The translations under genes were made by a program, and so were the position numbers. This document shows positions 29,475 to 56,476 of a stretch of 64,000 nt of DNA, piece after piece. The notes under the pieces are model-generated. The model was given only the letters and a program-made list of their open reading frames with translations. It searched no databases and was not told the DNA's origin. Within the stretch, counting starts at the first letter, position 1. Every line of letters begins with the position of its first letter. Origin of the DNA: an uncultured Verrucomicrobiota bacterium (GTDB lineage Bacteria > Verrucomicrobiota > Verrucomicrobiia > Opitutales > Opitutaceae). The stretch spans positions 1-64,000 of the forward strand of contig CAIRBK010000041.1 of assembly GCA_903876795.1 (NCBI GenBank), written 5' to 3'.

Positions 29475-30335
29475 TCAGCGTGAATCAGCGCGTTTAAGCT
29501 CGGCGGCCTTGGCGGCTCCGAGAAATTCGTAAAATGCCATCAGTCGGCAGAAAACATAGCCGCGATAACCGTCTAGGAAGCCGGCGCGCAGGACGTAGTG
29601 ATAGACAAAGCGCAGCAGAGGGCGGAACGGCAGTCGCGAGGCGAGTCGCTTGAGGCGGCGCTTGCGGGCCAGCGCGGGCGTGAGCGGGGCGGCGGAGGCC
29701 GCTTGTGCGCCGGTTTCGGAGAGAAGCAGTCGCGCCTCCCAGTTGGAGTAGCGGTTATGCTTCTCGACCCAGATGGAAATCGTCGGGAATGCATAGTGTT
29801 CCATCTCGTGGCGCAGGTGTCCGGAACGGCCGTCCAGAATGACATGTTCATGGACCTCGTTGTCGCCCGAGCCGGTGTCGCCCACGCCGTCGAGCTGTTC
29901 GTAGCGACCGGCGCGATGGCGGAAAAAGCGCAGGTTCCAGCTTGGGTAGTAACCGCAGTGCAGCAGCCAGCCATCCAGGAACCAGAAGCGACGATTTACA
30001 TAAAAACCGTCGCACTCCGGGGCGTTGACCACGGCTCGCAATTCTTCAGCCAAGCCCGGCGTGATGCGCTCATCGGCGTCCAGGATGAACACCCACTCGT
30101 GTTTCCAGGGCACGTGCGCGAGCGCCCAGTTCTTTTTTTTTGGAAACGTGCCGTCCCACTTAAAATCGACGACTTGGGCTCCCAGCGACCGGGCGAGCTC
30201 AGCGGTGCCGTCGGTGCTGCCGGAATCGACGACCACGATCTCGTCGGCAAACCGGGCCGAGGCGATGCAATCGCGCAGGTTGGCGGCCTCGTTTTTGGCA
30301 GGAATCAGGATGGAGATGGGGCAGGGCTCGGTCAT
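29475..30335 (-). CDS. GT2 glycosyltransferase, WaaE-like
   Basis: A 286-residue GT-A enzyme. It opens ISILIPAKNEAANLRDCIAS and has VVDSGSTDGTAELA and FILDADER, the DXD metal site (about 96-103). The body, with KKKNWALAHVPWKHEWVF, WNLRFFRHR and HVILDGRSGHLRHEMEHY, matches the WaaE/KdtX-type transferases that add glucose to the LPS inner core, suggesting core sugar addition. The start at 30335 shares an ATGA overlap with the ligase gene stop at 30332. Donor and acceptor are inferred from family only. Confidence 0.87.
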   Translation of the reverse strand: MTEPCPISILIPAKNEAANLRDCIASARFADEIVVVDSGSTDGTAELARSLGAQVVDFKWDGTFPKKKNWALAHVPWKHEWVFILDADERITPGLAEELRAVVNAPECDGFYVNRRFWFLDGWLLHCGYYPSWNLRFFRHRAGRYEQLDGVGDTGSGDNEVHEHVILDGRSGHLRHEMEHYAFPTISIWVEKHNRYSNWEARLLLSETGAQAASAAPLTPALARKRRLKRLASRLPFRPLLRFVYHYVLRAGFLDGYRGYVFCRLMAFYEFLGAAKAAELKRADSR

Positions 30336-32868: not shown

Positions 32869-33401
32869 TGCGGATCGACGCGCGGCTTCAGGGGCCGGCA
32901 GGGATGCCCTCCGCAGACCATCCGGGCCGGTTGGTCCTTGATCGCCACGGAGCGGGCGCCGATCACCGCGAGTTCACCGATGGTTACGCCCGGCCCGACG
33001 AAGACCTCGGCCCCCAACCAGGCGTTGGCGCCGATGCGAATGGGTTTGGCCACCAGAGGCATCGCCCATCGCGAATAATCATGCGTGCCGGCGCAGAGGT
33101 GAACGCCTTGGCTGAGTTGAGCTCCATAGCCCAGGGTGACCGGCGCGAGATTATAGATGTTTACCCAAGGTCCCACCATCACACGGGCTTCGCAGGCCAG
33201 TTTCCACGGATAGATGATGCGCGCCGAGGGATAAATCCGCACTTGGCTGCCGGCCGGGATATCCGCTCCAAACAGCCGCAGGAGCCGGACACGAAATCCG
33301 TGACAGCCGCGCGGGCTCCAACGGAAAAGCGTGGCTTGCACCGCGCCCCACAACCAGCGGCGAGCGATCTCCCGGCGCGTGTTCGGACGGGAATTACCCA
33401 T
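32865..33401 (-). CDS. WcaF-like sugar O-acyltransferase
   Basis: A 178-residue left-handed beta-helix acyltransferase that probably acetylates a sugar in the polysaccharide. Hexapeptide repeats are visible from about residue 50 (PAGSQVRIYPSARIIYPWKL and later IGANAWLGAEVFVGPGVTIG). The HDYS loop with its His is the catalytic position in this family. The arrangement matches putative colanic acid acetyltransferase WcaF. The start at 33401 gives the usual length; in-frame ATGs at 33434 and 33458 are possible. It overlaps the GT4 gene by four bases. Confidence 0.87.
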   Translation of the reverse strand: MGNSRPNTRREIARRWLWGAVQATLFRWSPRGCHGFRVRLLRLFGADIPAGSQVRIYPSARIIYPWKLACEARVMVGPWVNIYNLAPVTLGYGAQLSQGVHLCAGTHDYSRWAMPLVAKPIRIGANAWLGAEVFVGPGVTIGELAVIGARSVAIKDQPARMVCGGHPCRPLKPRVDPQ

Positions 33402-33472
33402 GCCTAGAAAGGGTGGGGGGCATGTTGACGACATGAGCTCAAGTGTTTTGGCGACCAAAGGCGGGGCAACCG

Positions 33473-37509: not shown

Positions 37510-38136
37510 TCATGCCGGGGTCTTGAGGCGAAGAACTTTTATATCCCAGACCTGACCCCGGTCATTGGCGGCCGTGCGGGCGTCGATCACAACGAAGTAG
37601 TCCTCGAGGTTTTTCCAGACGGCGGAGTAATTGCCCCAGCGAAAGTGCGACACGATGAGCACGCCGTTGGGGGACAGATAACCACCGAAGTCGGCTGCGG
37701 TTCTGGCGGGGTGTCTGGCATAGCCCAGGCACTCGTTGAATGTGATGACGTCATAAGGGCGATCAGGCCGCCACACCTCAAAGTTGCCCGAGGTGAAGTT
37801 GGCATGCGCCAGGTTAAGCGCGCGCGCCCGCTTGAGGCCCTCTTCCGAAAGATCGACGCCCAGGTGCGTTTCTATGCGCGCGGGATCGAGCATCGAGGCG
37901 AGCCGGCCGCTGCCGCAGCCTAGATCCAGCAATGCGGGGCGATTGGAGTAGGCGTAGATCAGTTCGAGAAGAACCTCGTGGCGGGCCTGTTCGGAGGGAC
38001 CGGTGAAGTGATCCCAGTTACCCGAGCGGTATTCCTCGTCAAGGGCGTGGACGGGCACGGGCTTGCCGCCGCCGCGGGGGGCGTGAACCAGGCGGTAATG
38101 GAGAAAATTCCAGGCCTTCTTAAGGAGATTAATCAC
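37510..38136 (-). CDS. SAM-dependent methyltransferase
   Basis: A 208-residue class I methyltransferase. The SAM-binding motif I is LLDLGCGSGRLAS (about 70-82), followed by the acidic end LGVDLSEEG and YDVITFNECLGYARHP as motif II. In this locus it probably methylates a sugar or a chain end; chain-terminating methylation is known in Wzm/Wzt systems, so that is one possible role. It overlaps the deacetylase gene by eight bases. Substrate is inferred only. Confidence 0.85.
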   Translation of the reverse strand: MINLLKKAWNFLHYRLVHAPRGGGKPVPVHALDEEYRSGNWDHFTGPSEQARHEVLLELIYAYSNRPALLDLGCGSGRLASMLDPARIETHLGVDLSEEGLKRARALNLAHANFTSGNFEVWRPDRPYDVITFNECLGYARHPARTAADFGGYLSPNGVLIVSHFRWGNYSAVWKNLEDYFVVIDARTAANDRGQVWDIKVLRLKTPA

Positions 38137-38917
38137 GGCAATGTTGGGGACAGGGGCGGATTATGAAAAATTCTTCGGTCGCGTCGAAAACACTTAAAAA
38201 AGCGTGCGACAACACGGGATGAGACCAAGGGGGGGAGGGCTCGACCTGGGATCGATACGCATTAATGGCGGCACGTTTCAACGCCGCGCTTTCTTCTGAC
38301 AGTTCACACCTATAGACCTCATGGGAGGCGCGCAGCACGCGCAGCAACAAGCGAGGGCTCCACTGGGACCATACCAGATATTCGAAAACGCGGGTTGGCC
38401 GCCCGGCGGAGGCGCGGCCCACGAGTTCGCAGGCGGCCTCGTGTTCGCTGCTGCCGTCGAGGGCTGAACACACGAACACGCAGTCGGGGTTCAGGCTTTT
38501 GATGAGGCCGCGCATGTGCTCGACCAGATGCGTCCGTTCGCGCGCTCCCAGGTGCGGCAGCCGTCCGTCGGGAGCTCCGAGGAAGAGAAGATTCTGAGAC
38601 GGCACGCCGAGAATGTCCGCCGCCGCGCGGGCCTCCCGCGCCCGCATCTCGGTCAATTGGGCGGGGGAGACTTCAGGATGTCCCGGGTGGGAATGACAGC
38701 CGTCGGTGATGAAGACCACATGGACGATTGCTCCCGCATCGACGGCTTGAATGATGAGACCTCCGCATCCGAGTGTCTCGTCGTCTTGATGGGGAGCGAA
38801 CACCAGAAGGGTTTCTCCGCGTCTAAACCGGGGCAGCGGTTGGCTCACGGAGCGCAGCTTCTGACGGAGCCAGGCCAGGAACCGGCGACGGAGCCATAGT
38901 TTTAAGTCCGGCATCAT
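38129..38917 (-). CDS. PIG-L family deacetylase
   Basis: A 262-residue zinc-dependent N-deacetylase of the PIG-L/LmbE fold. The metal motif is APHQDDETLGCGG (Pro42, His43, Asp45, Asp46), with Gln where the family often has Pro, and the later SEHEAACELV provides the second His. It probably removes an acetyl group from an N-acetyl sugar of the growing glycan. Its 3' end overlaps the methyltransferase start by eight bases. An alternative start is the second Met (38914). Confidence 0.88.
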   Translation of the reverse strand: MMPDLKLWLRRRFLAWLRQKLRSVSQPLPRFRRGETLLVFAPHQDDETLGCGGLIIQAVDAGAIVHVVFITDGCHSHPGHPEVSPAQLTEMRAREARAAADILGVPSQNLLFLGAPDGRLPHLGARERTHLVEHMRGLIKSLNPDCVFVCSALDGSSEHEAACELVGRASAGRPTRVFEYLVWSQWSPRLLLRVLRASHEVYRCELSEESAALKRAAINAYRSQVEPSPPWSHPVLSHAFLSVFDATEEFFIIRPCPQHCRD

Positions 38918-40190: not shown

Positions 40191-41455
40191 GGCTGGCGGC
40201 CGGAGAGAAAGCGCGTGACCGCCGAGCCGAGCGCCGCCCGATAATCGGTCCACTGCCAGGACGCGGCGGTCTCCCGGGCGTGTGCGCGCATTGCGTGAAG
40301 CTCGGCCCGGTTTTGCTGGCACCACTCGATGGAGGCGATCAACGAATCGACATCCCGCGTCCTTACGAGAAGTCCGTTCTCGCGGTCGCGCAGGAGGTCG
40401 TTGCATCCGGCCTGGTCGCTCGTGATCACCGGAAGACCTTGCGACCACGCCTCGGTGGCCACCATCCCGAAGCCGTCGCAGAGTGTGGGGAAAATCAATA
40501 CGTCGCTCTCCCGGTAGCGGGACATGAGTGCATCGCGTGGAATCGAGCCGCCGATCTCCACACCTTCCGGCAGCGGCAGCAGCAGACGGTCCGGCAGGGC
40601 GACGGCGCCGTAAATACGCAGGGTCGCGTGGCGGCCCAGCCGGCCCCGGCGCCAGGCTTCAAGCAGGTAATGCGCGCCCTTGCGCACGCCAAAAGTGCCC
40701 GCCCAAAGAACCGACAGCTTCGATGAAACACTTCCGCCGCCGACCGCTTCATCGGGCGAAATCGGCGGAGGAGCGCCAAGCGGCACCACGGCGACTTTGC
40801 CCGTGTCGCGTCCCGCCCGGGAAAACGTGTCGCGTGTAAATCGCGACGCGGCGACCACCAGGCCGGCGGCATCCCATTCGCGCTTTCGCCGGTCCGCCCT
40901 GCGCTCCTCACGCGCAAACGTGTGCCGGTAGAACGGAGTCTTAAGCTCGGGAAACTGATCCAGTTCGCGTTCCAGCATCGACTGCACAAAGGCCGGCTCG
41001 GGTGCGGGGACGTTGTAGATGATTTTCCGTCCGGTCGCCCGCGCCTTTTCAAAGGTGGCCAGCGAGCTGTGCTCGTAGCCGAAGACCGCAGTGATTTCCG
41101 AAGTCAGGCAATGCCTAGCCACATGGCGGTCGAAGCCGGTCTCGGCCCACTCCCAAACCAAGTCGCCGAGGCGCTGGGATGAATCAAGGCGGGCGGACAG
41201 CAGCCGCAACAATTCGCCGGCCGGCCGGCCGGTGACACGCTCCGCCGGGAGTTCGGTCACTTTCCTCCGGCGCAGATCGCGGTCGAAATCGTGGCGGGCG
41301 AATCGGGCGAGGTTGATCGCGATTTTTTGCCAGCGGCATTCCGGCTCGTAGCGCAGGGTGGTGTGCAGTTTTTCCAACAGGCCCGCCTCAAGCAGGGCGC
41401 GTGCATCCTGCTGCACATGCGGGGCGACACTGGGATGGAATATCAGGGTGCTCAC
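40187..41455 (-). CDS. GT4 glycosyltransferase (GTG start)
   Basis: A 422-residue GT4 enzyme. The donor domain shows VLWAGTFGVRKGAHYLLEAW and CDGFGMVATEAWSQGLPVIT with the two glutamates of the EX7E motif, then DQAGCNDLLRDRENG. The start is placed at GTG 41455 because it forms a GTGA overlap with the upstream gene stop and because the protein fold begins right there (VSTLIFHPSVAPHVQ). A much longer frame upstream lies inside the neighbouring gene and is a shadow. Specificity is unknown. Confidence 0.85.
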   Translation of the reverse strand: MSTLIFHPSVAPHVQQDARALLEAGLLEKLHTTLRYEPECRWQKIAINLARFARHDFDRDLRRRKVTELPAERVTGRPAGELLRLLSARLDSSQRLGDLVWEWAETGFDRHVARHCLTSEITAVFGYEHSSLATFEKARATGRKIIYNVPAPEPAFVQSMLERELDQFPELKTPFYRHTFAREERRADRRKREWDAAGLVVAASRFTRDTFSRAGRDTGKVAVVPLGAPPPISPDEAVGGGSVSSKLSVLWAGTFGVRKGAHYLLEAWRRGRLGRHATLRIYGAVALPDRLLLPLPEGVEIGGSIPRDALMSRYRESDVLIFPTLCDGFGMVATEAWSQGLPVITSDQAGCNDLLRDRENGLLVRTRDVDSLIASIEWCQQNRAELHAMRAHARETAASWQWTDYRAALGSAVTRFLSGRQP

Positions 41456-42450
41456 AGCGAATGGTTCGCCCGCGCCTCGGCGCTGATGTCCAGATAAGCA
41501 CGAGCTTGTCCCGCCAGGGTCAGATTTTCGGTCACATAAGCGCGCGGACTGAAGCCGCCTGCCTTCGCTTTTTTGAGGAAGCCGGGCAGCTTGGCGTTGA
41601 ACCCGGCCAGATCCGGAAAACGTTCGCCGCAGCGCGCGTCGAAATAGGGAACCGAGGTGACCCCGGAAAACCGGACACGGTGCGGATACATGTAGGGATC
41701 CTGCCAGAAGCCCCCGCGATCCCAGGCTAGCAAAGGTACATCGGAGGCAAGCGCCTGGAGATAGGCGAAGCCCTGGGTTTCGTGTTCGCAGAGAAACACC
41801 ATGGCGCGAACGCTCTTGAGCAGCGCATGATACTCCTCCTCGCGATAGTGGCCGTAGCGCAGGTAATGCACTTTCATACCCGCGGCGGCGAGTTGGTCGC
41901 GAATCGGGTTGAGCAGGGCGGGTTCCAGTTGGTCGCGTTGCCAGCGGATCTTGTCGTAGACGAGCACGGTGTCGGGTTCGGGCGGACGGGCCGGCGGAGC
42001 CCACAGGCGGGTGTCGATGCCCGCCGGCCAGACAACGGTGCGCAGAGGCACGCCTAGGTCCCGGTCATACATGGCCTTGAACCAGTCGCAGGAAATCACG
42101 AGACGACAAAGCTCGGGACGCCCCCAAAACGTGTTTTCAGTCGGGTGGTCGTCGATGCCGGGACCGTAAATGATCGGGTGTCCGGCGGGGATTTTTTCCA
42201 TCACATGGGATTTCCCGATCACATGGGCCCAGGCGCCGGGATTGCGGCGCAACCCGCGGTAGTCGTTTACCCGGTAATTGAAGCCGATTTCGTCGAGGCC
42301 GGCGCGGAGGTTAAGATACCAGCGCATGACGCCGCCCGGACGCGCCGGACCGCGCACGGCACGACGAACGATACGACGCAGGTAACGATCTCCACTGATC
42401 CAGCGGTCGGGATCGGGTTCCTCGTAAAAAAGAAAAAACGGTTCGATCAT
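41452..42450 (-). CDS. Probable GT-B glycosyltransferase
   Basis: A 332-residue protein that looks like a GT-B transferase with a shortened N-terminal domain. MRWYLNLRAGLDEIGFNYRV suggests an acceptor-side loop, and VVWPAGIDTRLWAP plus FLCEHETQGFAYLQALASDV with LAWDRGGFWQDP resemble the donor domain. A clear EX7E pair is not seen; Glu residues in ETQGFAYLQA may serve. The stop overlaps the following GT4 start (GTGA), and the start is one base from the GT8-like stop. Family assignment is tentative. Confidence 0.65.
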   Translation of the reverse strand: MIEPFFLFYEEPDPDRWISGDRYLRRIVRRAVRGPARPGGVMRWYLNLRAGLDEIGFNYRVNDYRGLRRNPGAWAHVIGKSHVMEKIPAGHPIIYGPGIDDHPTENTFWGRPELCRLVISCDWFKAMYDRDLGVPLRTVVWPAGIDTRLWAPPARPPEPDTVLVYDKIRWQRDQLEPALLNPIRDQLAAAGMKVHYLRYGHYREEEYHALLKSVRAMVFLCEHETQGFAYLQALASDVPLLAWDRGGFWQDPYMYPHRVRFSGVTSVPYFDARCGERFPDLAGFNAKLPGFLKKAKAGGFSPRAYVTENLTLAGQARAYLDISAEARANHSL

Positions 42451-42451
42451 T

Positions 42452-43513
42452 TCAGCGGGCCAGCCAGTCGGGCAGGAAGCGGGTGACCGTGCGTTTCAGA
42501 GTGCGCAGTTTCTCGCGTATCCAGACGCGACGAAAGGCCGGATCGCCGCGGTCGAGTCGTCCGCGAGTAAACAACAGGCGCCGGAATTCTTTCGTGAGTT
42601 TGACCCCGTCGAAGGTCTTGAAGGGGTAGGGTGCCGGAGGTGAACCGGTCACATGGACGGCCACGCCTTGGTGATAACGGGCCAGGACGGCGGCGAGCCA
42701 GGGAGCATTGGCCAGAACGGCGGCGTTGGCCTCGGCCGACATGTAAGTACAAACCACGCCGGGCCGCTCGAGGCGGTATCCGCTCAGGTGGAAAAACACG
42801 ACGGGGGAACCGTCGATTTCCCAGCGTGCATCGTCGCATTGGGCGACCGCGCGCTCGTGCACGTTCCAAAACGCGATGTTGAGGCGGGGGTCGCGGCAAA
42901 TCTCGACGTGGCGGGGGAAGTAGTGAGGCAGCAAGGGCAGCAGTTTCTGATCGACAAACATGCCGTGCGGGCGGTCGCAGAAGCCGTAAACGGGCAGCCG
43001 TGTACGCAACCAGTTCAACATCTCGACGGATTCCGGGCAACGCCGCCAGGCCGCGAACCCGCCGTTCAGCAACCCTTGGTCGACGATGTCGATCTCGGTG
43101 GTGTGGGTGATCGACAGTGGCGGAGGGACCAACTGATGCGGAGTAAGGAGCAGCGGTGCGGACTCCATCTGATCCCAGACTTCGGAAAACGAGCCCGTCA
43201 CGAGCAGATCGACATCGAGGCAGATGACCCGTTCGTGGTGTTGCGCGAAGAGATGGGAGACTAGGAATGGTTTCAGCGCGTTGCAGAACTCGAACGCGTC
43301 GAAATACCAGCGCATCAAGGGTGGCCCGGCGTCGGCAAGCTCGTCCAACGCGACAAAGCGCAGGCCGCCGCCCGACGGGGGCGGCTCCCCGCCGACCAAA
43401 TCGGTGATCAACACATGGAGCACTTCGGGGTTGCCTGCCGCACGCAGGGAATCTGCCAGAGCGCGGGCAAACGGCAGGTGGGAGCGGGTGCTGACGGTGC
43501 AGAACGATTTCAA
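42452..43513 (-). CDS. GT8-like nucleotide-sugar transferase
   Basis: A 353-residue GT-A protein with the metal-binding DXD in RVICLDVDLLVTGSF (Asp100 and Asp102). The later DQGLLNGGFAAWRR and FFHLSGYRLERP resemble the acceptor and product-side motifs of GT8-like enzymes of LPS synthesis. The start MKSFCTVSTRSHLPFARALADSL is typical of this group. It is 13 bases after the interrupted methyltransferase gene and one base before the next gene's start. Sugar and linkage are unknown. Confidence 0.8.
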   Translation of the reverse strand: MKSFCTVSTRSHLPFARALADSLRAAGNPEVLHVLITDLVGGEPPPSGGGLRFVALDELADAGPPLMRWYFDAFEFCNALKPFLVSHLFAQHHERVICLDVDLLVTGSFSEVWDQMESAPLLLTPHQLVPPPLSITHTTEIDIVDQGLLNGGFAAWRRCPESVEMLNWLRTRLPVYGFCDRPHGMFVDQKLLPLLPHYFPRHVEICRDPRLNIAFWNVHERAVAQCDDARWEIDGSPVVFFHLSGYRLERPGVVCTYMSAEANAAVLANAPWLAAVLARYHQGVAVHVTGSPPAPYPFKTFDGVKLTKEFRRLLFTRGRLDRGDPAFRRVWIREKLRTLKRTVTRFLPDWLAR

Positions 43514-45316: not shown

Positions 45317-46469
45317 GACGTCGAAGGATACGGGTTTTCACCCACGTTTTGGCTATAACGCTTGCGGTTCTCAGCGGCGCGGTTCGGGCGCAAAGCCGAA
45401 TAAGCGAAAGGTTGTGCAATAGGCCTGTGTATTTGATCTTCTGATGCAATTCTCCAAGCAGGTAGCGGGGCACCACTGCCCGCCAGAGCTCTCTAGCGGA
45501 AATCTCATGGGGTGTTAGGGGAAGAATCGTTGCCGGAACGGAATTCACACCAGCCGGGCTCAGCGCATCTACAAAGGAAGGATGCGCCATAATCGCAATG
45601 GCGAGGGTGCGCAGCACAGCACGTTCATCGGTTTCAAATCGCTCGGATTGAGAACCGGTTTTGGATGCGGCGTGTTCCCTGAATGTCGCCAGCGTCGACT
45701 CTATCCGGCAGATGGTTTTGCCACCACCATCGATCGCCAAAAGACGAACCCAAAGCTCGAAGTCCATGGCGAAATGAAGGGATTCGTTTACGCGCCCTAC
45801 AAACGAGGTCCGATAAAACATCGCTGGCTGGGCGGTGCGGTGGTTGACTATGTCGTCGGCGGTATTGCCCGTCAGTTTGATTCCGTAGTTACGGAGGACT
45901 TGACCATCACGCAGGACATTGAGCTGTCCGGCAATCAATCTGGCTTCGGGGTGGCTCGCAGCATTTTGAGCCAGTGTTGCCAGCGCGCCGGGCTGGAGAT
46001 AATCGTCGCTGTTCAGCCAGTTGAACCATTCTCCGGTGGCACGAGCCAGTCCCTTGTTGATGGCGTGGGATTGCCCGCGGTCGGGTTTACTTTCCCAATG
46101 GGAGATCCAAGGGGAGTATTTTTTAAGAATATCAACGGTGCCGTCGGTGCTGCCGCCATCGATTACGATGTATTCGAGATCGGGGTAGCCCTGCAAAAGG
46201 ACCGAACGTATTGTTTCCTCAATGAAGATTCCTTGATTAAAGGAAGGTGTGATGATCGTGATGCGCTGGCAGTTTTCCCCAGGCGTCACTTGATGCGTGG
46301 CCGACGCATAAGTCCACGGCCAGCCGGAACGACCCGAAGGCGGGGTAGGGAGGTCGGCTATCGTCGCGGGCCGGTTGCGCCCGGTCTGGCTTAGATACGA
46401 CTCATGATCCTTGGCCGATTGGGTAGATGCCGCGAAATCATACGTTCGTCCGCTGACGGGTTCATTCAT
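45309..46469 (-). CDS. GT2 glycosyltransferase
   Basis: A 386-residue GT-A enzyme with an N-terminal extension of about 65 residues. The core begins ITIITPSFNQGIFIEETIRS, continues YIVIDGGSTDGTVDIL, ESKPDRGQSHAINKGLARA, and has WLNSDDYL as the metal motif. These match the bacterial GT2 group of O-antigen loci. The 3' end overlaps the following GT2 gene by eight bases, and the start overlaps the GT4 gene upstream by ATGA. The N-terminal extension is polar and of unknown use. Confidence 0.88.
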   Translation of the reverse strand: MNEPVSGRTYDFAASTQSAKDHESYLSQTGRNRPATIADLPTPPSGRSGWPWTYASATHQVTPGENCQRITIITPSFNQGIFIEETIRSVLLQGYPDLEYIVIDGGSTDGTVDILKKYSPWISHWESKPDRGQSHAINKGLARATGEWFNWLNSDDYLQPGALATLAQNAASHPEARLIAGQLNVLRDGQVLRNYGIKLTGNTADDIVNHRTAQPAMFYRTSFVGRVNESLHFAMDFELWVRLLAIDGGGKTICRIESTLATFREHAASKTGSQSERFETDERAVLRTLAIAIMAHPSFVDALSPAGVNSVPATILPLTPHEISARELWRAVVPRYLLGELHQKIKYTGLLHNLSLIRLCARTAPLRTASVIAKTWVKTRILRRHA

Positions 46470-47725
46470 GATTTTTTATGCATCAGACTTTCGTAGACGC
46501 CCCGGTATCTGTTCGCGTTTATTGAGGGCGCATGGCGTGCGATTACGAGACGTCGACCTGATTCGATTAAGGCTCTTCGTAGTTCTTCGTCTCGGGTCAA
46601 TCGACGCAGGCTTTTTGACAGCAAACCTACATCGCCGACTGGAAAAAGCAGGCCTGCGCGACCTTCGTCCAGCGCCTCACGGATGCCGCCGACATCCGAT
46701 CCGATAACGGGTGTGCCGCAGGCGAGAGCCTCAATTGCGGTTTGCCCGAACGCCTCGGCGTGAGAAGGAATCACAAAACAATCCATCGCGGAGTAGGCCG
46801 CACACTTGAGATCATCGTTCTCCAAGTAACCGAGATGGATCCAAGGTGAAGACACCGAGTTTTTAACCGTGTCCGTAGGTCCGCTGCCAAAACTCAGCAG
46901 GGCCACTGGAACGGAGCGTTCGATTTCTCGAATCGAGGCCAGAAGATCGACCAGGCCCTTGCGCTTGTTGCGCAGACTGGTGCTTGCGAAGCCGATGATG
47001 AGGTGGTCAACTGGTAAGCCGAATGCGAGTTTGGCCGCTGTTTTGTCGCGAGGAGCGAACCGATTTGCATCTAGAGGATAAAAAATGGTTTCAAACCGTG
47101 TTTCTGCTGCGAAGAAACCCGATGCTTGGGCTGCAGTTGTGTTCCAAGTGCTGTTGCCGATGATTGCTAGCGGGGATACCGATTGAAGCCTTTTTCGTTT
47201 CAATGTGCGCCACCGATCGTCAAGTTTATGCAAAGCTGGATTATGTTCGCGATCGAGAGTGTAGTGAAAACCGCCGAGATAGGGGTTTTGGTCATGCAGG
47301 GTCCAGACGAGTGGTTTTGTGATCCGCGCAAAGAAGCGCGGATAATCGACGAATCCCGTAGTCCAGTGAAGATGAACCAGGTCGGCATCCGTCACCCATG
47401 GATGGGATTCGGGTGCGAAGCGCGCGTGCGGGCTGGAGAAAAGCTCGAATTCCGCCGCCCCTCCGGATTTTTGAATTTCCAAAACGGTATCTGCCTCATC
47501 CTTGGCGACAGGGTCGTGGACTTTTAGCAGGCGGCGCAGCCCACGCTTCCACAAGGGTGGAACCAGCGGCGGGCATGTAGTGCAGCTGTTGGCCGTGGAT
47601 TCGGCCCCAGCACGGGCGCAAAGAAAGCGGCTATTGATGCCGATGGTGCGAAGCGCTTCATGTTGGCGCCAGGCGGCGATTCCGGCCCCTCCGGTGTTGG
47701 TCGTGGCGATGTGGACGATATTCAT
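46466..47725 (-). CDS. GT4 glycosyltransferase
   Basis: A 419-residue GT-B enzyme. It opens MNIVHIATTNTGGAGIAAWRQ, with the glycine-rich loop, and has WTLHDQNPYLGGFHYT in the N domain and SHAEAFGQTAIEALACGTPVI with GSDVGGIREAL in the donor domain, a clear GT4 EX7E site. The start at 47725 forms an ATGA overlap with the GT2-acyltransferase gene stop. Specificity is unknown. Confidence 0.9.
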   Translation of the reverse strand: MNIVHIATTNTGGAGIAAWRQHEALRTIGINSRFLCARAGAESTANSCTTCPPLVPPLWKRGLRRLLKVHDPVAKDEADTVLEIQKSGGAAEFELFSSPHARFAPESHPWVTDADLVHLHWTTGFVDYPRFFARITKPLVWTLHDQNPYLGGFHYTLDREHNPALHKLDDRWRTLKRKRLQSVSPLAIIGNSTWNTTAAQASGFFAAETRFETIFYPLDANRFAPRDKTAAKLAFGLPVDHLIIGFASTSLRNKRKGLVDLLASIREIERSVPVALLSFGSGPTDTVKNSVSSPWIHLGYLENDDLKCAAYSAMDCFVIPSHAEAFGQTAIEALACGTPVIGSDVGGIREALDEGRAGLLFPVGDVGLLSKSLRRLTRDEELRRALIESGRRLVIARHAPSINANRYRGVYESLMHKKS

Positions 47726-49248
47726 GCCGGCCGGTCCTTGATCTTCCTGGCGGGAACACCGCCCCAAACCTCGAAGGAGGGCACGTCTTGGGTGACGACG
47801 CTGCCTGCCCCGATCACTGCGCCGCGACCGATATGAACACCCGGGAGAACGACCACGTTGCACCCCACCCAAACGTCGTCGTCGATTCGTACGGAAGCAC
47901 CGACGAAACCTTGGCATTGAATGGGCATCTCTCGGGAATGGTAACAGTGGTTGCTCGAGGTGATGTAGGTATTGGCCCCGATCAGAACCTGTCTTCCTAT
48001 GGTTATGTCAGCATATACGTTTAGCCGGGTGTTGAAGCCTAGAAAAACATGGTCGCCTATCTCAAGACGTCCCGCGCTTTGTTCTGGCGATGAAAACCAC
48101 AGACTCACCCCGTGCTCCCAAATCAGTTCCCGCCCGAGCACCATTGAGTCGGCCGACGGTAGATACCCGTAAACGCGCAACGACGGTTCGCAGTCGCCGC
48201 CGCCCCGAAAAATGCGCTTTCGTATCCGCGACGCGACGCGCCCCATGCGCCTCCTTGCTAGAAACCTCCTCCAAGGCCCGCAACGGTTCTCGATTATCCG
48301 CTCCAGATAGGTTTGCAGCAGGAATCCGTCGGCCAGCAGGAGACGCAGTTTGGACCAGCCGCGCGAATTTACCAGCAGGGCGAGACCAATATCGGCGCGG
48401 CGTATCCGATAGTGCATCGAGTGGAAATTCGGAGCAAAAAGCCGGTCAAGCTCGGCCAGCACTCGGGCTCCGTCTCGGGAGTCAAACGAGGCTGGGAACG
48501 GAGCCAATCCAAGGGCCCCCAGCAAGAGCTCCCGGGATGTTTCCGAAAGCGAAAGCCCCCGCACATACGACCGACGTATGATGGAAATTTGCGCTTCCTG
48601 TTGTGTTCGTCGGTTTACACCCACTGAAGCCCCGTGCCGCCGGTAGCGCAGGAGGGGATCAGGGAGATTCGCGAAACGGACGCGCGAGCTCAGCCGGCAC
48701 CACAATTCATAATCTTCGGTCACCCCGAAGGCCGGATCATAACGATTCAATGGATCGCGCAGCAGATGGGCCCGAATCATCAGTGCCGGATGCGCCAGAG
48801 GATCACGAAACATCAGTTCAGTCCTGATTTCCGCGTCCGAGAGCGGGTAGATCGTTCGCTCGCAGACTCGTCCTTCGGAATCGATGATTTCCAGACCGGT
48901 GCCGACTATGCCAATTTCCGGGTGGGCCTCTAGAAACGTTGTCTGGCGCGCGAATCGTTCGGGATGACACAGGTCGTCGCCGTCGAAGCGGGCGATGTAG
49001 GTGCAGCCTTCGCTTTTCTCCAACAGTGCGTTCAGGGAGGCGGCAACGCCCAGGCTCGTCTCATGACGAACGACCAAGACAGGGAAACGGCTCTCCCCGG
49101 AGAGAATCTCGCCTGTTGAGTCGGTCGAGCCATCGTCGCAAGCAAGCAGGCGGAAGTCTTGGAATGTTTGCCGGGCCAGGCTATCGAGCGCCGCCTTGAG
49201 AAAGCGCTCGCCGTTTTTTACGGGAAGAATGACGTCGATCCTGCTCAT
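47722..49248 (-). CDS. GT2 glycosyltransferase fused to a hexapeptide acyltransferase
   Basis: A 508-residue two-domain protein. Residues about 1-230 are a GT2 transferase: IDVILPVKNGERFLKAALDS, ACDDGSTDSTGEIL, and RFDGDDLCHPERFARQ as the metal motif. A middle region of about 160 residues is not recognised. Residues about 393-508 are a left-handed beta-helix acyltransferase: GDHVFLGFNTRLNVYADITI, NHCYHSREMP with the catalytic His, and VRIDDDVWVGCNVVVLPGVH, ending GGVPARKIKDRPA. The fusion suggests that one protein adds a sugar and acetylates it or its neighbour. No stop or frameshift lies between the halves. The start at 49248 overlaps the next gene stop by ATGA; an upstream ATG at 49284 is possible. 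Confidence 0.86.
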   Translation of the reverse strand: MSRIDVILPVKNGERFLKAALDSLARQTFQDFRLLACDDGSTDSTGEILSGESRFPVLVVRHETSLGVAASLNALLEKSEGCTYIARFDGDDLCHPERFARQTTFLEAHPEIGIVGTGLEIIDSEGRVCERTIYPLSDAEIRTELMFRDPLAHPALMIRAHLLRDPLNRYDPAFGVTEDYELWCRLSSRVRFANLPDPLLRYRRHGASVGVNRRTQQEAQISIIRRSYVRGLSLSETSRELLLGALGLAPFPASFDSRDGARVLAELDRLFAPNFHSMHYRIRRADIGLALLVNSRGWSKLRLLLADGFLLQTYLERIIENRCGPWRRFLARRRMGRVASRIRKRIFRGGGDCEPSLRVYGYLPSADSMVLGRELIWEHGVSLWFSSPEQSAGRLEIGDHVFLGFNTRLNVYADITIGRQVLIGANTYITSSNHCYHSREMPIQCQGFVGASVRIDDDVWVGCNVVVLPGVHIGRGAVIGAGSVVTQDVPSFEVWGGVPARKIKDRPA

Positions 49249-50402
49249 GGTTTGGGTGGAGCGCTGTTTGCCGATGCGGCGCAAACAAGTGTTTCGGCGA
49301 ACGTCGCTATAGGATCAGCCGGAGCGAGCGAGCGAATGTCCCGACCTGCGCGCAGTCCGAGTTCGCGCCATTCGTGGCGACGGAGCCAAGCGCGTTCGAG
49401 CGCTTCGTCGAGGGCGCGCATGGTCGGCCCTGCGGCAACGAAACCGTTAACGTTGTCGTCAACAATCTCGGGGTTTCCGGCCACGTCGGTCACAACACAC
49501 ATGCGGTGCGCCATCATCGCTTCGATCGCGGCCAGCGGCATACCCTCGACGCGACTTGGCAGCACGAGGGCGTGGTGGTCTTTCCAGACTGTTCCGATGT
49601 CATTGGCGAATCCTTCGAAGGTAACAGTTTCAAGTCCTGCGGCTGCCCGACGTAACACATCCTCCGAGGCACCATTGCCAAACAACGCGAAGCGCAGCGG
49701 TCTACGGCGCCACTTGGGCTGGTCGAGTACGCGGAAGAGGATATCCTGGCCCTTGCTTCCTGGTTCTAGGCGTCCCACGCAAGCCATCCTGAGTGGCTCG
49801 TCGACGGAGGGCCAAGTCGGCGTGGTATTGCGATCTATATTGAACGGGTTCCAGACGACTTCGGACTGCGGCAGCGGCGCCGCCAGCTGCATGCGTACCA
49901 GATCACGATTCGAGCGCGATACGAAGTAGCACCGGTGAGCGGATTCGAAGCCGAGGCGCAATTGTTCCAGATGTTCTCCGACCGGCCACCAAGCGTCTTG
50001 GGCGGCCTGAACCATCAAAGCGTAACGAACGCCCAGTTCCCGACATGCCCGAAGCCATTCCGAGCCGTCATATTGACCGGCCTGAGCGATAAAAACCAGG
50101 TCCGGGCGCAAGGCGCGCACCTGATGGTCGAGAATCTGGACTTCATGAGAAATTCGCTGCCACCGCCTCCGCCAGCGCCGCACACGCTCTCCCCATTTGG
50201 GACTGTAGCTTATCGGTATGGGTTGAAATTTAACGCCCGCAGCCAGCGTTTTCAGAAGGGTGGCGGGTTGCAGGGTGAATTCGCGCCTCAACACCACGAC
50301 TTCATGGCCTTGGTCCGCCATGCGACGTGCGGCCCCGGCCCACAGTTCTTCGCTGCCTCCCCATGGAACCACCTCAAGCGTCGAAATAATCAGAATACGC
50401 AT
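49245..50402 (-). CDS. GT4 glycosyltransferase
   Basis: A 385-residue GT-B enzyme. It opens MRILIISTLEVVPWGGSEELWAGA with the acceptor loop WGGSEEL, and has VGRLEPGSKGQDILFRVL and LPSRVEGMPLAAIEAMMAHR in the donor domain. RVEGMPLAAIEAM supplies the two glutamates seven residues apart. It overlaps the fusion gene by four bases and lies 16 bases after the GT2 gene upstream. Specificity is unknown. Confidence 0.89.
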   Translation of the reverse strand: MRILIISTLEVVPWGGSEELWAGAARRMADQGHEVVVLRREFTLQPATLLKTLAAGVKFQPIPISYSPKWGERVRRWRRRWQRISHEVQILDHQVRALRPDLVFIAQAGQYDGSEWLRACRELGVRYALMVQAAQDAWWPVGEHLEQLRLGFESAHRCYFVSRSNRDLVRMQLAAPLPQSEVVWNPFNIDRNTTPTWPSVDEPLRMACVGRLEPGSKGQDILFRVLDQPKWRRRPLRFALFGNGASEDVLRRAAAGLETVTFEGFANDIGTVWKDHHALVLPSRVEGMPLAAIEAMMAHRMCVVTDVAGNPEIVDDNVNGFVAAGPTMRALDEALERAWLRRHEWRELGLRAGRDIRSLAPADPIATFAETLVCAASANSAPPKP

Positions 50403-51424: not shown

Positions 51425-52672
51425 TCAGGTGATCGCTGTGTTCTGCCAGTCCAACTTTGGGCGGATGCAGCCGATGATGGTTCCGGTAAACTCGTTCCTG
51501 CCCGCTCCGGTCTCATGCACCGTGAAAGTAATGGCGTCGGTAAGGTGGATCTCAATGCGCGCGGAATCCGTGATGAGAATAATGCTCACGCTGTAGAGCC
51601 CGTCGTTGAGGAAATTGGCCGGCAGACGCACCCGGTCGCGATAAATGCCTACGGAGGGGGTCGAATTTCCCGGGCCGCTGCTGAGGACGCAGGCGCCGTG
51701 CTTGTCGAAGAGATGGATACTCGAAGTAAGCGTGAGGTCGGGTGTGTGAACCGCAAACTCGTATTCGATAAAGACATCCCGATCAATCGGCACGTCGTGC
51801 GAGATACGACCTTCGGTGACGATCCGGGCGCGGTGCAGTCTGACACGGTTGTTGCCGGCCCGGGGGTCTTCCGGCGGCCAGGCGACCTCGCCACCCGCAT
51901 GATCTCCGGATCGGATGTAGGACGCGACGACCTCGCCGGCCTGTCCCGCGAATTTGACCCTACCGTTCTCCATGAAGATCGCTCGTCCGCAGAGATTGGC
52001 CACGACGCCCAGGTTGTGGCTTACGAAAATCACCGTGCGCCCGGCGTCGCGGGAAACCTGGTTGATTTTGCCGAGACATTTTTTCTGAAAGGCTGCGTCG
52101 CCCACGGCGAGGACCTCGTCGATGATCAGGATTTCGGGCTCCAGATGGGCGGCCACCGAGAATGCCAGACGCACATACATGCCACTGCTGTAGCGTTTCA
52201 CTGGTGTGTCCAAAAAACGCTCCACCTCGGCGAATGCGACGATCTCGTCGAACTTGCGGCGTATCTCCGCCCGGCTCATGCCGAGGATGGCGCCGTTCAG
52301 ATAGATGTTGTCCCTGCCGGTCAGATCCGGATGAAACCCCGTGCCGACCTCCAGCAGGCTGGCCGCGCGGCCCTGCAGCATGATGCGGCCGGTGGTCGGA
52401 CCGGTGATGCGCGAGAGGATTTTGAGCAGCGTGGATTTGCCCGCGCCGTTGCGGCCAATGATACCGACCACCTCGCCGCGCTTGATCTCGAAATTCACGT
52501 CGCGCAACGCCCAGAAATCCTCGCGTTGGAGGCGGGTGTTACAGCGCACGCGCCGCCATGCGAGGCGGGCCAGGTGGTGGAGGCTTTCGCCGAGGGTGTC
52601 CTGTCCGGCAAGGTGGCTCAGCCGGTAGCGCTTGGAAACGTTCTCCGCGCGGATGACAATATCGTCGCTCAT
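51425..52672 (-). CDS. wzt: Polysaccharide ABC exporter ATPase with C-terminal glycan-binding domain (Wzt type)
   Basis: The ATPase of an O-antigen/capsule-type ABC exporter. The 415-residue protein has Walker A GRNGAGKST (about 76), the Wzt/TagH-type signature RYSSGMYVRLAFS (about 160), Walker B ILIIDEVLAVGD and the H-loop VSHN. The C-terminal region (about 265-415) is a beta-sandwich like the Wzt carbohydrate-binding domain that recognises the finished chain end. The start at MSDDIV (52672) is two bases from the wzm stop; longer frames upstream lie in wzm. With Wzm it should export undecaprenyl-linked glycan to the periplasm. Confidence 0.93.
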   Translation of the reverse strand: MSDDIVIRAENVSKRYRLSHLAGQDTLGESLHHLARLAWRRVRCNTRLQREDFWALRDVNFEIKRGEVVGIIGRNGAGKSTLLKILSRITGPTTGRIMLQGRAASLLEVGTGFHPDLTGRDNIYLNGAILGMSRAEIRRKFDEIVAFAEVERFLDTPVKRYSSGMYVRLAFSVAAHLEPEILIIDEVLAVGDAAFQKKCLGKINQVSRDAGRTVIFVSHNLGVVANLCGRAIFMENGRVKFAGQAGEVVASYIRSGDHAGGEVAWPPEDPRAGNNRVRLHRARIVTEGRISHDVPIDRDVFIEYEFAVHTPDLTLTSSIHLFDKHGACVLSSGPGNSTPSVGIYRDRVRLPANFLNDGLYSVSIILITDSARIEIHLTDAITFTVHETGAGRNEFTGTIIGCIRPKLDWQNTAIT

Positions 52673-52674
52673 GG

Positions 52675-53511
52675 TCAGATAATGTCGGCAAACGAGCGCT
52701 CCGAGCGCCGGAAAAACCATACACCGGTCACGATCAAAACCGCCGCCCATGCCAAGGAAAAAACCAGACTTTCCAGGTGAAAGACCGCGCCTTCCCCAAG
52801 CAGGCACCAGCGAAATGCATCGATCACACCGGTCATGGGATTAAGCGCGAGCAAAGCCTGCCAGTTGGGTAGAAAATCGGTGCGATAACCGACCGGCGTG
52901 GCGAACACGCCGATCTGTAACAGGAACGGCACGACGATGCGGAAATCGCGAAACCGCACTGTTAGTGCCGCGAGCCAAAGACCGGCTCCGAGGGCGAGCG
53001 CCAGCGCGAGCAGGATGAACGCCGGCAGCAGCAGCGCCCGCCAAGTCGGTACAATGCCCGTCCATGCCAGCGCCGCGCCGAACAGACCGAGCAGAATCGC
53101 GAAATCGACCAATGCGACCGCCAGGGTGGCCAGAGGCACGGTCAGGCGGGGGAAGTAGATTTTGGAGATCAGGTGCGCATTTCCGACCATGCTGCCGCTT
53201 GTGTTGCTCAAGGTGTTGGCAAAGAGCTGCCAGGCCAGTTGGCCCGCCATCACCACGATGAAATAAGGCTCGTTGCCCGAGGGCATCCCGGCCAGTCGGC
53301 CGAAGACAAACGTGAAGATCGCGACCGAGGCCAGCGGCTGGATGATCGCCCATGCGGCACCCAGCAGCGTCTGCTGATAGCGCACCTTGATGTCGCGCCA
53401 TGCCAGGAAACCGAGTAGTTCACGGTAACGCCAAAGGTCGGCCCAATAGTGGCGCTCGGCGCGGCCTGCCTCGATCACCAGAGTCTGCGGCATGGCTGGG
53501 GGGATTTTCAT
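52675..53511 (-). CDS. wzm: Polysaccharide ABC exporter permease (Wzm type)
   Basis: A 278-residue ABC-2 type permease with six hydrophobic helices. The N-terminal YRELLGFLAWRDIKVRYQQT is the amphipathic interface helix of Wzm/TagG-like proteins, followed by LLGAAWAIIQPLASVAIFTF. A conserved NPMTGVIDAFRW lies before the last helix. It overlaps the upstream GT4 gene by ATGA and is followed by wzt. It forms the membrane channel for lipid-linked polysaccharide. Confidence 0.93.
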   Translation of the reverse strand: MKIPPAMPQTLVIEAGRAERHYWADLWRYRELLGFLAWRDIKVRYQQTLLGAAWAIIQPLASVAIFTFVFGRLAGMPSGNEPYFIVVMAGQLAWQLFANTLSNTSGSMVGNAHLISKIYFPRLTVPLATLAVALVDFAILLGLFGAALAWTGIVPTWRALLLPAFILLALALALGAGLWLAALTVRFRDFRIVVPFLLQIGVFATPVGYRTDFLPNWQALLALNPMTGVIDAFRWCLLGEGAVFHLESLVFSLAWAAVLIVTGVWFFRRSERSFADII

Positions 53512-54587
53512 GCTGAAAGGATACGTTGCAGCCGCTCCTTAAACAGAGGGAAGGAAAACCGGCGGACGCTGATGCGGATCGCCGCCGCATCCCATGTGGC
53601 AGTGAGCGCCGAGACACAGGCCGCCGCGAGTGCGGGCACGTCGGCGTAGGGCACCAGGCGCCCGCTTTCGGGCGTGATCACTTCGGGAGATCCGCCGGCG
53701 TCGGCCGCGATGCAGGGTTTTCCGTAAGCCATGGCTTCGAGGTAAACCAATCCGAACCCCTCCTTCTCGCTGGGCAGAGCGAAAATCGTGCAGCGCGCGA
53801 ATTCGTGGCGCAGCTGGCGGTCATCCACATAGCCGGCGAACTCGACCGCTGCATCCAGTGCGAGCTCGCGCACCCGTTGTTGCAACCTCGGGCGATCATC
53901 ACCGCGGCCGATGATGCGCAGTTTGGTGCCGGGCGCGCCTCGGAGGATGGCGGGCATTGCCTCGATGAGGTGATCCACGCCTTTGTAGCGGTCGGTGGAA
54001 CTCAGGCGCGACACCGCGAGGATGACCGGCTGGCTGGTGGTCGAAAGGGCGGAGTCCACCCCGTCCGCGTCGAGTTCCGGATCGAGGGCGTTGGGCAGCA
54101 CGACGACACGTTCCGGGTCGATCTGGATGTTTTTGAGGAGTTCTTTGCGCGTGAACTCGCTCACGCAGAGGACCCTCCAGGCACCCTTCAGGGCCCGGCG
54201 CTCCCAAAAGGTAAACGGACGCCAGACTTCGATGCCATGTGCGACCAGCACATAACGCAGTCCCGGGCGGCGCCAGCCCGCCAGCCAGGCGACAGGCAAC
54301 TGGGCCACATGGCCGCAGACTATGAGCTTGGCTCCGGCGCTTAGATTGAGCGCGGCGCGTATGAATCTGCCTATGTCACGGCCGCAGGCTTCCCAGCGAT
54401 CAAGCGCCGTTGCGAGGGAGTAGGGTCGCAGGTCCGCCGAGTCCACCGAAACGTCGTTGAGGGCGACAAATCGCACGCGGTCTTCTTTTCCGGCGAGGTC
54501 GCACAACGCCTTCAGGTAAAGCCGCAGGATACGAGGGATACCGCTGTCGGTCGTGAACAGTTCGGGGGCCAACAACAGCGTCTTCAT
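53508..54587 (-). CDS. GT4 glycosyltransferase
   Basis: A 359-residue GT-B enzyme. It starts MKTLLLAPELFTTDSGIPRI and the donor domain has ILAVSRLSSTDRYKGVDHLI, SEKEGFGLVYLEAMAYGKPCI, and ADAGGSPEVI, a complete GT4 EX7E signature. The start at 54587 forms an ATGA overlap with asnB; the longer frame upstream is inside asnB. The last residues overlap the wzm start by four bases. Specificity is unknown. Confidence 0.9.
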   Translation of the reverse strand: MKTLLLAPELFTTDSGIPRILRLYLKALCDLAGKEDRVRFVALNDVSVDSADLRPYSLATALDRWEACGRDIGRFIRAALNLSAGAKLIVCGHVAQLPVAWLAGWRRPGLRYVLVAHGIEVWRPFTFWERRALKGAWRVLCVSEFTRKELLKNIQIDPERVVVLPNALDPELDADGVDSALSTTSQPVILAVSRLSSTDRYKGVDHLIEAMPAILRGAPGTKLRIIGRGDDRPRLQQRVRELALDAAVEFAGYVDDRQLRHEFARCTIFALPSEKEGFGLVYLEAMAYGKPCIAADAGGSPEVITPESGRLVPYADVPALAAACVSALTATWDAAAIRISVRRFSFPLFKERLQRILSA

Positions 54588-56476
54588 GCGACAACAGGGC
54601 GCGGGCGGTTGATAAACGCGATGAGAATCGCCAGGGACCAGACGCGCGACCAGCCGGCGGCATCGCCTCCCGCCAGAAAACCTCGCCAATGATGTTGCAC
54701 GGTCTGCGCTTCAAAAAAACCGCTTCGGCCGATACTCTGTGTTGAGAACAAATCCTCGAGAAACGCCCTCAACGGACCGCGCATCCACACGGGGTAGGGC
54801 AACGAAAAACCTTGCTTGCGGCGGGTGTGCAGGCCGGGAGGAAGAACATCGCGTACCGCCTCGGCGAGCGCCGACTTCGGGCGGTCCGGCGTATGTCGGT
54901 ACGAGACCGGCTGGCCGGCCAGCCAGCGCACCAGCGGGCGGTCCACAAAGGGCACGCGCAGCTCCAGCGAGTGCCGCATGCTCATGACATCGCTGTCTCG
55001 CAGTAGCACGTCGGTCATGTAACCGCGCAGCTCCGCCACGCTGGCCAGGGTGAACAAGTCGGCCGAGGCGAGTTCTCCTGCGAGCGCGGCCTCGGCGGGG
55101 TGGGGTGCGTAGGGGAGGGAGGCTTCTGGTGAGAGCAGGGAGAGCCGTGTGGATTCGGCGAATACGCGCCGTTGCAGCAACGCTCGGGCCGCCGGTGAGT
55201 GGCCGTGGCGCAGGGTGTCGGCGAGTTTGCGCGAGCGGGTGTCGCCGAGATCACAGCAGTTAAGCAGGGCGGTGCGCAGCGGGCCGGGGACCCGGTTCCA
55301 GAGTGGCAACCAACGAGAGAGACGGGTGGTATTGGCAAACGAGGGATAGCCGCCGAAAAGTTCGTCCGCTCCGAGTCCTGAAACGGCGACCGTGACACCC
55401 CCGGCGCGAGCCGCTTGGCTGGCATAGTAGGTGTTGATGCCGTCGCCGGTCGGTTGGTCGAGGGAGGTGATGACCGTGTCGATTTCGGCGGCGAGGCGGG
55501 CACCCGTAAGCACGGTGGAGTGGTGGTCGGTTCCGAGGTGGCGGGCGTTATCGGCGGCCGTCTCGGCTTCAGAGTAACCGGTCTCTTCGAAGCCGATGGA
55601 AAACGTCTTCAGCCGGGAACCACCGGCGTGGGCCATCAGGGCGACGAGCGCGGTCGAGTCGAGTCCGCCGGAAAGAAACGCGCCGACCGGCACGTCGGCG
55701 GCGGAGTGCGCCCGCAGGGAGTCCTCCAGCTGCGCGCGCAGCCCGGTGGTAAATTCCTCGCGATTGCGTGCGGGTGTGGCCCCCGGGGCGGGGGCGGCCA
55801 GATCGCCCGGCGTATCGTAAGAGGTGATCGATAGCCGGCCGTCGTGCCACACGGCCGCATCGCCGGCACGGAGGCTTTGCACCGCCCGATAAATCGTGCG
55901 CGGGGCCGGCACCGAAAGCCAGGCGAGGTAGTCATTTACGCCGCCCGGGTCTATATCCGCAGGAACCGCGCCCGACGCCAACAACGCGTTGAGTTCGGAT
56001 GAAAACACCAGGCTGCCGTCGGGGCGGGTGTGGAGGTAAAGGGGTTTGATGCCGAAGGAATCACGAGCGAGCAGCAGGGTACGCTCAACCGAGTCCCAGA
56101 GCGCGAAGGCAAACATCCCTCTCAGTCGCGGCAGTGCATCGCGACCCCAGCGGACAAGCGCGGCGAGCAGCACCTCGGTGTCGCAATCGGTGGAAAATTC
56201 GTGGCGGGCGGCTAGTTCAGAGCGGAGCGCGCGGAAGTTGTAAATCGCACCGTTGAACACGAGATGCCAGCGGCCGTCGGGCGTGCTCATCGGCTGGTGT
56301 CCGCGGCCCGGGTCGAAAATCGCCAGCCGGCGCATGCCAAGTGTGGCCTCACCGCAGGTCGCCAGACCGCCATCGTCCGGGCCGCGATGCATCATGGCTT
56401 TATTCATACGCCCCACGGCTTGGGCGCGCTGATCTGGTGTCGAGTGGCGGCTGATGTAACCGGCTATGCCGCACAT
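54584..56476 (-). CDS. asnB: Asparagine synthetase-type glutamine amidotransferase
   Basis: A 630-residue two-domain enzyme. The mature Cys2 in MCGIAGYI is the glutaminase nucleophile, RLAIFDPGRGHQP and FNGAIYNFRALRSEL complete the Ntn domain, and AFLSGGLDSTALVAL (about 268-282) is the PP-loop that activates the carboxylate with ATP. It is the first gene of the locus and overlaps the next glycosyltransferase gene by four bases (ATGA). Free asparagine synthesis is possible. But AsnB-fold enzymes in O-antigen loci, such as WbpS, amidate sugar acids, and that role fits the context. A perfect 7-pair hairpin lies in the leader about 20-45 bases before the start. Confidence 0.9.
   Translation of the reverse strand: MCGIAGYISRHSTPDQRAQAVGRMNKAMMHRGPDDGGLATCGEATLGMRRLAIFDPGRGHQPMSTPDGRWHLVFNGAIYNFRALRSELAARHEFSTDCDTEVLLAALVRWGRDALPRLRGMFAFALWDSVERTLLLARDSFGIKPLYLHTRPDGSLVFSSELNALLASGAVPADIDPGGVNDYLAWLSVPAPRTIYRAVQSLRAGDAAVWHDGRLSITSYDTPGDLAAPAPGATPARNREEFTTGLRAQLEDSLRAHSAADVPVGAFLSGGLDSTALVALMAHAGGSRLKTFSIGFEETGYSEAETAADNARHLGTDHHSTVLTGARLAAEIDTVITSLDQPTGDGINTYYASQAARAGGVTVAVSGLGADELFGGYPSFANTTRLSRWLPLWNRVPGPLRTALLNCCDLGDTRSRKLADTLRHGHSPAARALLQRRVFAESTRLSLLSPEASLPYAPHPAEAALAGELASADLFTLASVAELRGYMTDVLLRDSDVMSMRHSLELRVPFVDRPLVRWLAGQPVSYRHTPDRPKSALAEAVRDVLPPGLHTRRKQGFSLPYPVWMRGPLRAFLEDLFSTQSIGRSGFFEAQTVQHHWRGFLAGGDAAGWSRVWSLAILIAFINRPRPVVA

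Follow-up and report, generated by a model that had tools for sequence, protein, structure and literature searches.

The window, the whole 64,000-nucleotide stretch of DNA analysed here, carries on its minus strand a gene (49248..47722) that translates as one intact frame of 508 codons plus a stop, with no internal stop; the plus strand over the same interval is interrupted by stops. Its product begins with a GT2 glycosyltransferase domain and ends with a hexapeptide acyltransferase domain, and both Pfam families score above their cut-offs, bearing out the first-pass annotation, which had described the two as joined in one 508-residue chain. At both ends the gene shares an ATGA overlap with its neighbour, the stop of the upstream GT4 gene overlapping the start of the fusion and the stop of the fusion overlapping the start of the downstream GT4 gene (a start, at 47725, that was chosen in this analysis, the listed ORF being longer), which makes the fusion frame part of a tight operon. 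Third-position GC ranges from 0.61 to 0.72 along the gene, and codon-position GC shows no marked break.

The surrounding cluster contains many glycosyltransferase genes accompanying a Wzm/Wzt exporter (Table 1). At the C-terminus of the Wzt-like ATPase, the Wzt_C family (PF14524) gives 29.2 bits, slightly under its cut-off of 30.4. In ABC-exporter pathways, undecaprenyl diphosphate carries the glycan while it is assembled and finished in the cytoplasm, the compartment that supplies acetyl-CoA, and export comes afterwards; a glycan completed before export in this way is reachable by an acetyl-CoA-dependent enzyme. A PIG-L-type de-N-acetylase is encoded in the same region. A Pfam scan of 16 neighbouring proteins encoded in the window found no aminotransferase; three of the 16 matched no family.

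Table 1. Features of the fusion gene and its neighbours, in window coordinates.
Feature	Position	Strand	Basis
Wzm-like permease of the exporter	52675..53511	-	PF01061, 67.8 bits
Wzt-like ATPase of the polysaccharide ABC exporter	51425..52672	-	PF00005, 78 bits; start chosen here
GT4 glycosyltransferase gene, upstream of the fusion	49245..50402	-	Pfam PF13692/PF00534; ATGA junction
Fusion gene, 508 aa + stop: GT2, helical tail, basic helix, left-handed beta-helix acyltransferase (predicted)	47722..49248	-	Translation; Pfam; ATGA overlaps; ortholog
Residues 1-205, predicted GT2 GT-A catalytic domain	48634..49248	-	Pfam PF00535; VIA-align to 6p61_B
Residues 89-92, DGDD, putative metal/nucleotide-sugar motif	48973..48984	-	Conservation among unfused relatives
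Residues 178-179, ED motif, putative catalytic base	48712..48717	-	Conservation among unfused relatives
Residues 206-324, predicted helical tail of the GT2	48277..48633	-	AlphaFold; lengths of unfused GT2s
Residues 325-350, basic helix, probably N-terminus of the acyltransferase module	48199..48276	-	Charge count; first-Met positions
Residues 351-508, predicted left-handed beta-helix acyltransferase domain	47725..48198	-	Pfam Hexapep; PDB matches 3ect, LacA 1kqa
His434, putative catalytic histidine	47947..47949	-	LacA alignment; relatives
GT4 glycosyltransferase gene, downstream of the fusion	46466..47725	-	Pfam; junction; G045 comparison

Family and fold together identify residues 1–205 as a GT2 domain of GT-A type, with sugar transfer as its predicted activity. 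Pfam Glycos_transf_2 matches residues 6–127 with 79.3 bits against a gathering score of 23.3, and the solved structures related to this half by sequence include chondroitin synthase and 6p61, among others. A predicted model shows the GT-A fold, superposing on 6p61_B over 188 residues with a VIA-align Z of 26.8 and an rmsd of 1.6. In alignment A3, D89, D91 and D92 of the DGDD motif are present in all 40 unfused relatives, E178 in 36 and D179 in 37 of them; from the GT2 family, we take DGDD to be the metal/nucleotide-sugar motif and the ED pair at 178–179 to supply the catalytic base.

Residues from about 351 to 508 are a predicted hexapeptide (left-handed beta-helix) acyltransferase. Hexapep (PF00132) scores 54.3 bits against 27, with its best stretch at 453–486, and Hexapep_2 (PF14602) scores 47.9 against 27; solved relatives by sequence include 3ect, LacA (1kqa) and other acetyltransferases. 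His434 aligns with LacA His115, presumably the catalytic histidine, and is a histidine in 34 of 37 acyltransferase relatives, whose rows came from alignment A2, some of them from longer frames; this alignment drew GT tails across the acyltransferase region and served solely as a source of sequences for conservation counts. G404 stands opposite LacA Asn85, which we take to be a substrate-binding residue. The transferred group is probably acetyl.

The best curated NCBIfam scores of this half, over residues 392–506, are to WcaF (80.9 bits, cut-off 192) and WbbJ (76.4 bits, cut-off 243), and all 25 NCBIfam models listed stay below their cut-offs, including a second WcaF model (TIGR04008, 55.8 against 326.3), the maltose and galactoside O-acetyltransferases MAT/LacA (51.3 against 314 and 65.6 against 347) and the NeuD/PglB-type N-acetyltransferases (TIGR03570, 66 against 160.8). 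The Mac capping motif (PF12464) is absent from Pfam matches up to an E-value of 1. The earlier description of the domain as WcaF/maltose-acetyltransferase-like thus holds for the superfamily; at family level it does not, given the score of 80.9 against 192 for the WcaF model PRK10502 and the lack of a Mac domain. The sole structural model covering 351–508, a full-length prediction from a two-row alignment, was poor (pLDDT 43.6).

A second genome of the same genus (G045) encodes a full-length, end-to-end ortholog with 49% identity. In both clusters, with the G045 neighbours named by eye, the common order is an asparagine-synthase-like gene, a GT4 gene, Wzm, Wzt, other genes, the fusion, a GT4 gene and GT2 genes; the GT4 genes downstream of the fusion in the window and in G045 share 47% identity. 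Identity between the orthologs is 66.7% in the acyltransferase core (396–508), 48.8% in the glycosyltransferase and lowest, at 35.7%, in the middle (216–330). Although the source of the window is a draft assembly in 103 contigs, an assembly error, the artefact contemplated by the first-pass annotation, or a frameshift that fused two genes has a negligible probability and is ruled out by this ortholog, because the same fusion followed by the same downstream gene lies in a syntenic cluster on a 2.4 Mb contig of G045, and the window frame runs without an internal stop and overlaps its neighbours at both ends.

Between the two halves, at about residues 230–390, the first-pass annotation had placed a domain of unknown type, about 160 residues long. 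Several observations argue against a separate domain. Unfused GT2 relatives extend 268–350 aa from domain start to stop in 43 of 45 frames, and so already have a C-terminal tail as long as the one in the fusion; L030 (a frame with two GTs), L052, and the two fusions with their duplicate loci were excluded from this count. On the other side, the first methionine of 17 short unfused acyltransferase frames (selected as shorter than 260 aa, with a score above 70 and an ATG-type methionine only) falls at profile columns 306–347, approximately residues 300–341, and in the longest cases matches to unfused hexapeptide enzymes start at columns 353–376 (approximately residues 347–370). The tail of the GT2 and the start of the acyltransferase therefore meet or overlap at about 300–350, leaving no space for a further domain, and the protein resembles two complete genes placed end to end. 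A Pfam search with residues 230–508 alone returned, besides Hexapep, just a sub-threshold match to LbH_EIF2B.

Structure prediction of the middle region was proposed in the same annotation. In an AlphaFold model of residues 1–352 built from 42 sequences (mean pLDDT 92.3, pTM 0.87; residues 1–290 are spanned by at least one fifth of the alignment rows, and the model past 290 is barely checked), helices at 211–323 form a bundle following the GT-A domain, with block-mean pLDDT of 77–98 over residues 201–320, and a less certain helix occupies 325–348 (pLDDT about 68–71). Residues 325–350 contain 11 K/R and no D/E, and the ortholog is also basic there; this helix is probably the N-terminus of the acyltransferase module.

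Homology of the middle to GT2 tails was not detected by sequence beyond chance. A local profile-profile alignment of the whole protein against 43 unfused GT2s ended at column 243. When residues 206–345 were compared with the 28 measurable tails of these 43, the hhalign score of 13.2 was exceeded by the three best of 100 column shuffles (16.2, 15.2 and 13.4), and with a second tail set (25 of 40) the score of 14.1 fell below the top four of 100 shuffles. An HMM of the 25 tails ranked the two real middles 61st and 235th of 402 sequences, 400 of which were shuffles. The low identity of the two orthologs over this stretch also speaks against the tail reading. The assignment of the middle as GT2 tail consequently relies on position, length and the model, and we conclude that the middle is probably the tail of the GT2 plus the N-terminus of the acyltransferase.

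Two loci in the family, L064 and L069, carry adjacent unfused GT2 and acyltransferase genes in the same order as the fusion, separated by an ATGA overlap in L064 and by six bases in L069. The annotation had looked to two separate genes in relatives as a sign of artefact; such adjacent pairs do exist, but their GT2s are more distant, with scores of 33 and 44 bits against the profile of the fusion, and a gene fusion would itself lead one to expect separate genes elsewhere. Even with these more distant GT2s, the pairs show a route by which such a fusion could arise. A GT2–acyltransferase–glycosyltransferase triple in Hymenobacter (L138) was considered as a split counterpart and rejected, its GT2 being 22% identical and its third gene having no significant similarity to the window GT4.

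The fused form is rare in the genomes sampled. Counting its own genome each time, it occurred in 2 of 13 genomes of the genus, 2 of 288 of the phylum, and 2 of 387 of the phylum in an overlapping sample searched with a two-row profile and three candidates scored per genome. A screen of 252 genomes of the family with the acyltransferase half gave matches in 118; the matches listed included 16 further acyltransferase frames of at least 400 aa, none of which had a GT2 profile match, and Pfam was run on ten of them. The same half gave matches in 112 of 296 genomes from the phylum of a Paludibacter genome and in 129 of 299 from that of a Caulobacteraceae genome; among the matches listed, none of the 13 frames of at least 380 aa had a GT2 match in the same frame. 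Searches of plasmids and of phages found no record covering 80% of the query, and on plasmids one GT2-hexapeptide fusion of another kind was seen. A contig scan with two GT2 peptide patterns only recovered three loci with unfused GT2s, which says nothing on fusion. With just two natural examples of the exact fusion, a single pair of orthologs is the evidence that the two halves stay joined.

We propose that a GT2 gene and a hexapeptide acyltransferase gene, joined end to end, gave rise to a bifunctional enzyme of cell-surface glycan synthesis that would glycosylate and O-acetylate the same glycan, a reading that we hold with somewhat better than even confidence; a coupling of glycosyl transfer to O-acylation would be plausible. 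In such an enzyme, the GT-A domain would transfer one sugar from a nucleotide sugar to a growing lipid-linked glycan at the cytoplasmic face of the membrane. The left-handed beta-helix is a trimerising fold, and the C-terminal domain would assemble into a trimer with active sites between subunits, moving an acetyl group from acetyl-CoA to a hydroxyl of the added sugar or of its neighbour. The fusion would hold both steps together, with three glycosyltransferase units per acyltransferase trimer, and the basic helix at 325–350 may keep the enzyme near the membrane.

Less probable, though a serious competitor, is that both halves are active but have separate targets, either different parts of a glycan or different molecules; the fusion would then do no more than fix co-expression and stoichiometry or give the glycosyltransferase a trimeric scaffold. 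The side-by-side unfused GT2 and acyltransferase genes at L064 and L069 in the family, and at L138 in Hymenobacter, are consistent with this, as is the tight operon, by which expression is already coupled; that a second species has kept the fusion, at 49% identity, suggests instead that joining the halves brings some advantage, although one pair is weak evidence.

We consider it unlikely that, in the manner proposed for mimivirus L142, an amino sugar nucleotide is first N-acetylated by the acyltransferase half and its sugar then transferred by the glycosyltransferase half. That protein, a tested N-acetyltransferase with a predicted glycosyltransferase domain in the account given in PMC9614988, is a precedent for this order of events, and the PIG-L-type de-N-acetylase of the region would fit it; on the other hand, the Pfam scan of the 16 neighbours returned no aminotransferase (with three of them lacking matches), and the WcaF and WbbJ models fit the domain better than the NeuD/PglB model does.

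More improbable still is that one half is catalytically dead and structural, the beta-helix, for instance, acting as a trimer scaffold. The rarity of the fused form and the trimerising nature of the fold would suit such a role, but both halves retain their putative catalytic positions, and no part of the protein is better conserved than the acyltransferase core.

We also regard as a long shot that the fusion caps or marks chains, adding and acylating a terminal sugar whose acylated end would be read by the C-terminal Wzt domain of the exporter. Methyl or phosphate caps play such a role in known ABC-dependent O-antigens, and, were it so here, acetylation would be a signal for export or chain length.

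If both halves act on one sugar, the gene would offer a compact, genetically linked module of glycosylation and acylation for glycan engineering, and Rosetta-stone logic would predict that separate GT2 and acyltransferase neighbours share a sugar.

Among known systems, WcaF and WbbJ are stand-alone, single-domain polysaccharide O-acetyltransferases, whereas the domain described here is fused to a GT2. A protein encoded on an Allorhizobium pseudoryzae plasmid (WP_165222045.1, 817 aa), annotated only as a glycosyltransferase, resembles the fusion in that a single chain carries a GT2 and, after it, a hexapeptide domain, within a glycan cluster with an ABC exporter; it differs in an additional C-terminal methyltransferase and is about 35% identical over partial stretches of each shared half.

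Mimivirus L142 contains an acetyltransferase that we take to be of the hexapeptide type. As described in the sections of PMC9614988 devoted to it, L142 is a two-domain protein of 490 aa, a tested UDP-viosamine N-acetyltransferase with a predicted glycosyltransferase, and its acetyltransferase is PglB-like and a predicted trimer in which a histidine is important by mutagenesis. It thus resembles the fusion in combining an acetyltransferase and a glycosyltransferase in one chain of similar size. The text on this viral protein puts its acetyltransferase at the N-terminus, while Table 2 of the same review gives the glycosyltransferase as domain 1 (PMC9614988); in our protein the acyltransferase is C-terminal. 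The substrates may also differ, L142 acting as an N-acetyltransferase on UDP-viosamine (PMC9614988) and the domain here scoring 80.9 and 76.4 bits to WcaF and WbbJ against 66 to NeuD/PglB.

Neisseria PglB, according to the part of PMC11130364 that covers it, is an acetyltransferase/phosphoglycosyltransferase that makes diNAcBac. Like our protein, it joins a sugar acetyltransferase to a sugar-transferring enzyme in one chain, but its transferase is a phosphoglycosyltransferase and not a GT2 (PMC11130364). A further one-chain combination of a modification enzyme with glycosyltransferases is K. pneumoniae O7 ORF6, which the relevant passage of PMC11231755 describes as a methyltransferase, a coiled coil and two GT modules in an ABC-transporter-dependent O-antigen system, with a suggested role in polymerisation and termination; there the modification is a methyl group and the architecture is different, whereas the fusion carries an acyltransferase. 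Hexapeptide enzymes are one of two capsule O-acetyltransferase classes described in the corresponding portion of PMC7387560. The literature searched, which left out most subscription journals, yielded no description of a bacterial protein with a GT2 ahead of a hexapeptide domain. Joining a sugar acetyltransferase to a transferase is therefore a known idea, and the fusion combines two familiar enzymes in a way that is rare among the bacteria sampled.

The fusion lies within a large glycan region (window 28100-57000), which carries further sugar-transfer, acyl-modification and export genes. Two other proteins encoded there returned zero matches in a Pfam scan at 0.001; by eye, both have homologs, in the same gene order, in the cluster of G045, a second genome of the genus (locus L102).

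Coordinates of features in the glycan region and of related loci
Feature	Position	Counterpart or source
WbaP-like sugar transferase	window 28100-29452	
O-antigen-ligase-type protein	window 30332-31744	
Second hexapeptide acyltransferase	window 32865-33458	
PIG-L deacetylase	window 38129-38917	
Protein with G045 homolog	window 41452-42450	L102 17011-18006 (by eye)
Protein with G045 homolog	window 42452-43513	L102 14910-15983 (by eye)
Wzm/Wzt exporter	window 51425-53511	
Asparagine-synthase-like gene	window 54584-56476	
~550-575 aa protein	L086 1464-3188	genome G045
~550-575 aa protein	L137 2932-4581	Rhizobium plasmid

We also observed a conserved protein of ~550-575 aa, in which an N-terminal hexapeptide acyltransferase precedes a C-terminal region of ~330 residues that had no Pfam match at 0.01. 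The L086 and L137 copies, the only pair compared, share 42% identity across 550 columns. Frames of comparable length occur in loci L088, L089, L091, L095, L100, L116 and L117, and our guess, from size and domain position, is that these belong to the same group; of the seven, the Pfam scan covered L088, L089 and L116.

On an Allorhizobium plasmid (L052:7995-10445), a GT2, a hexapeptide and a methyltransferase domain share a single chain of 817 residues that is annotated as a glycosyltransferase only. The surrounding cluster includes gmd as well as genes for GDP-fucose synthase and an ABC exporter.
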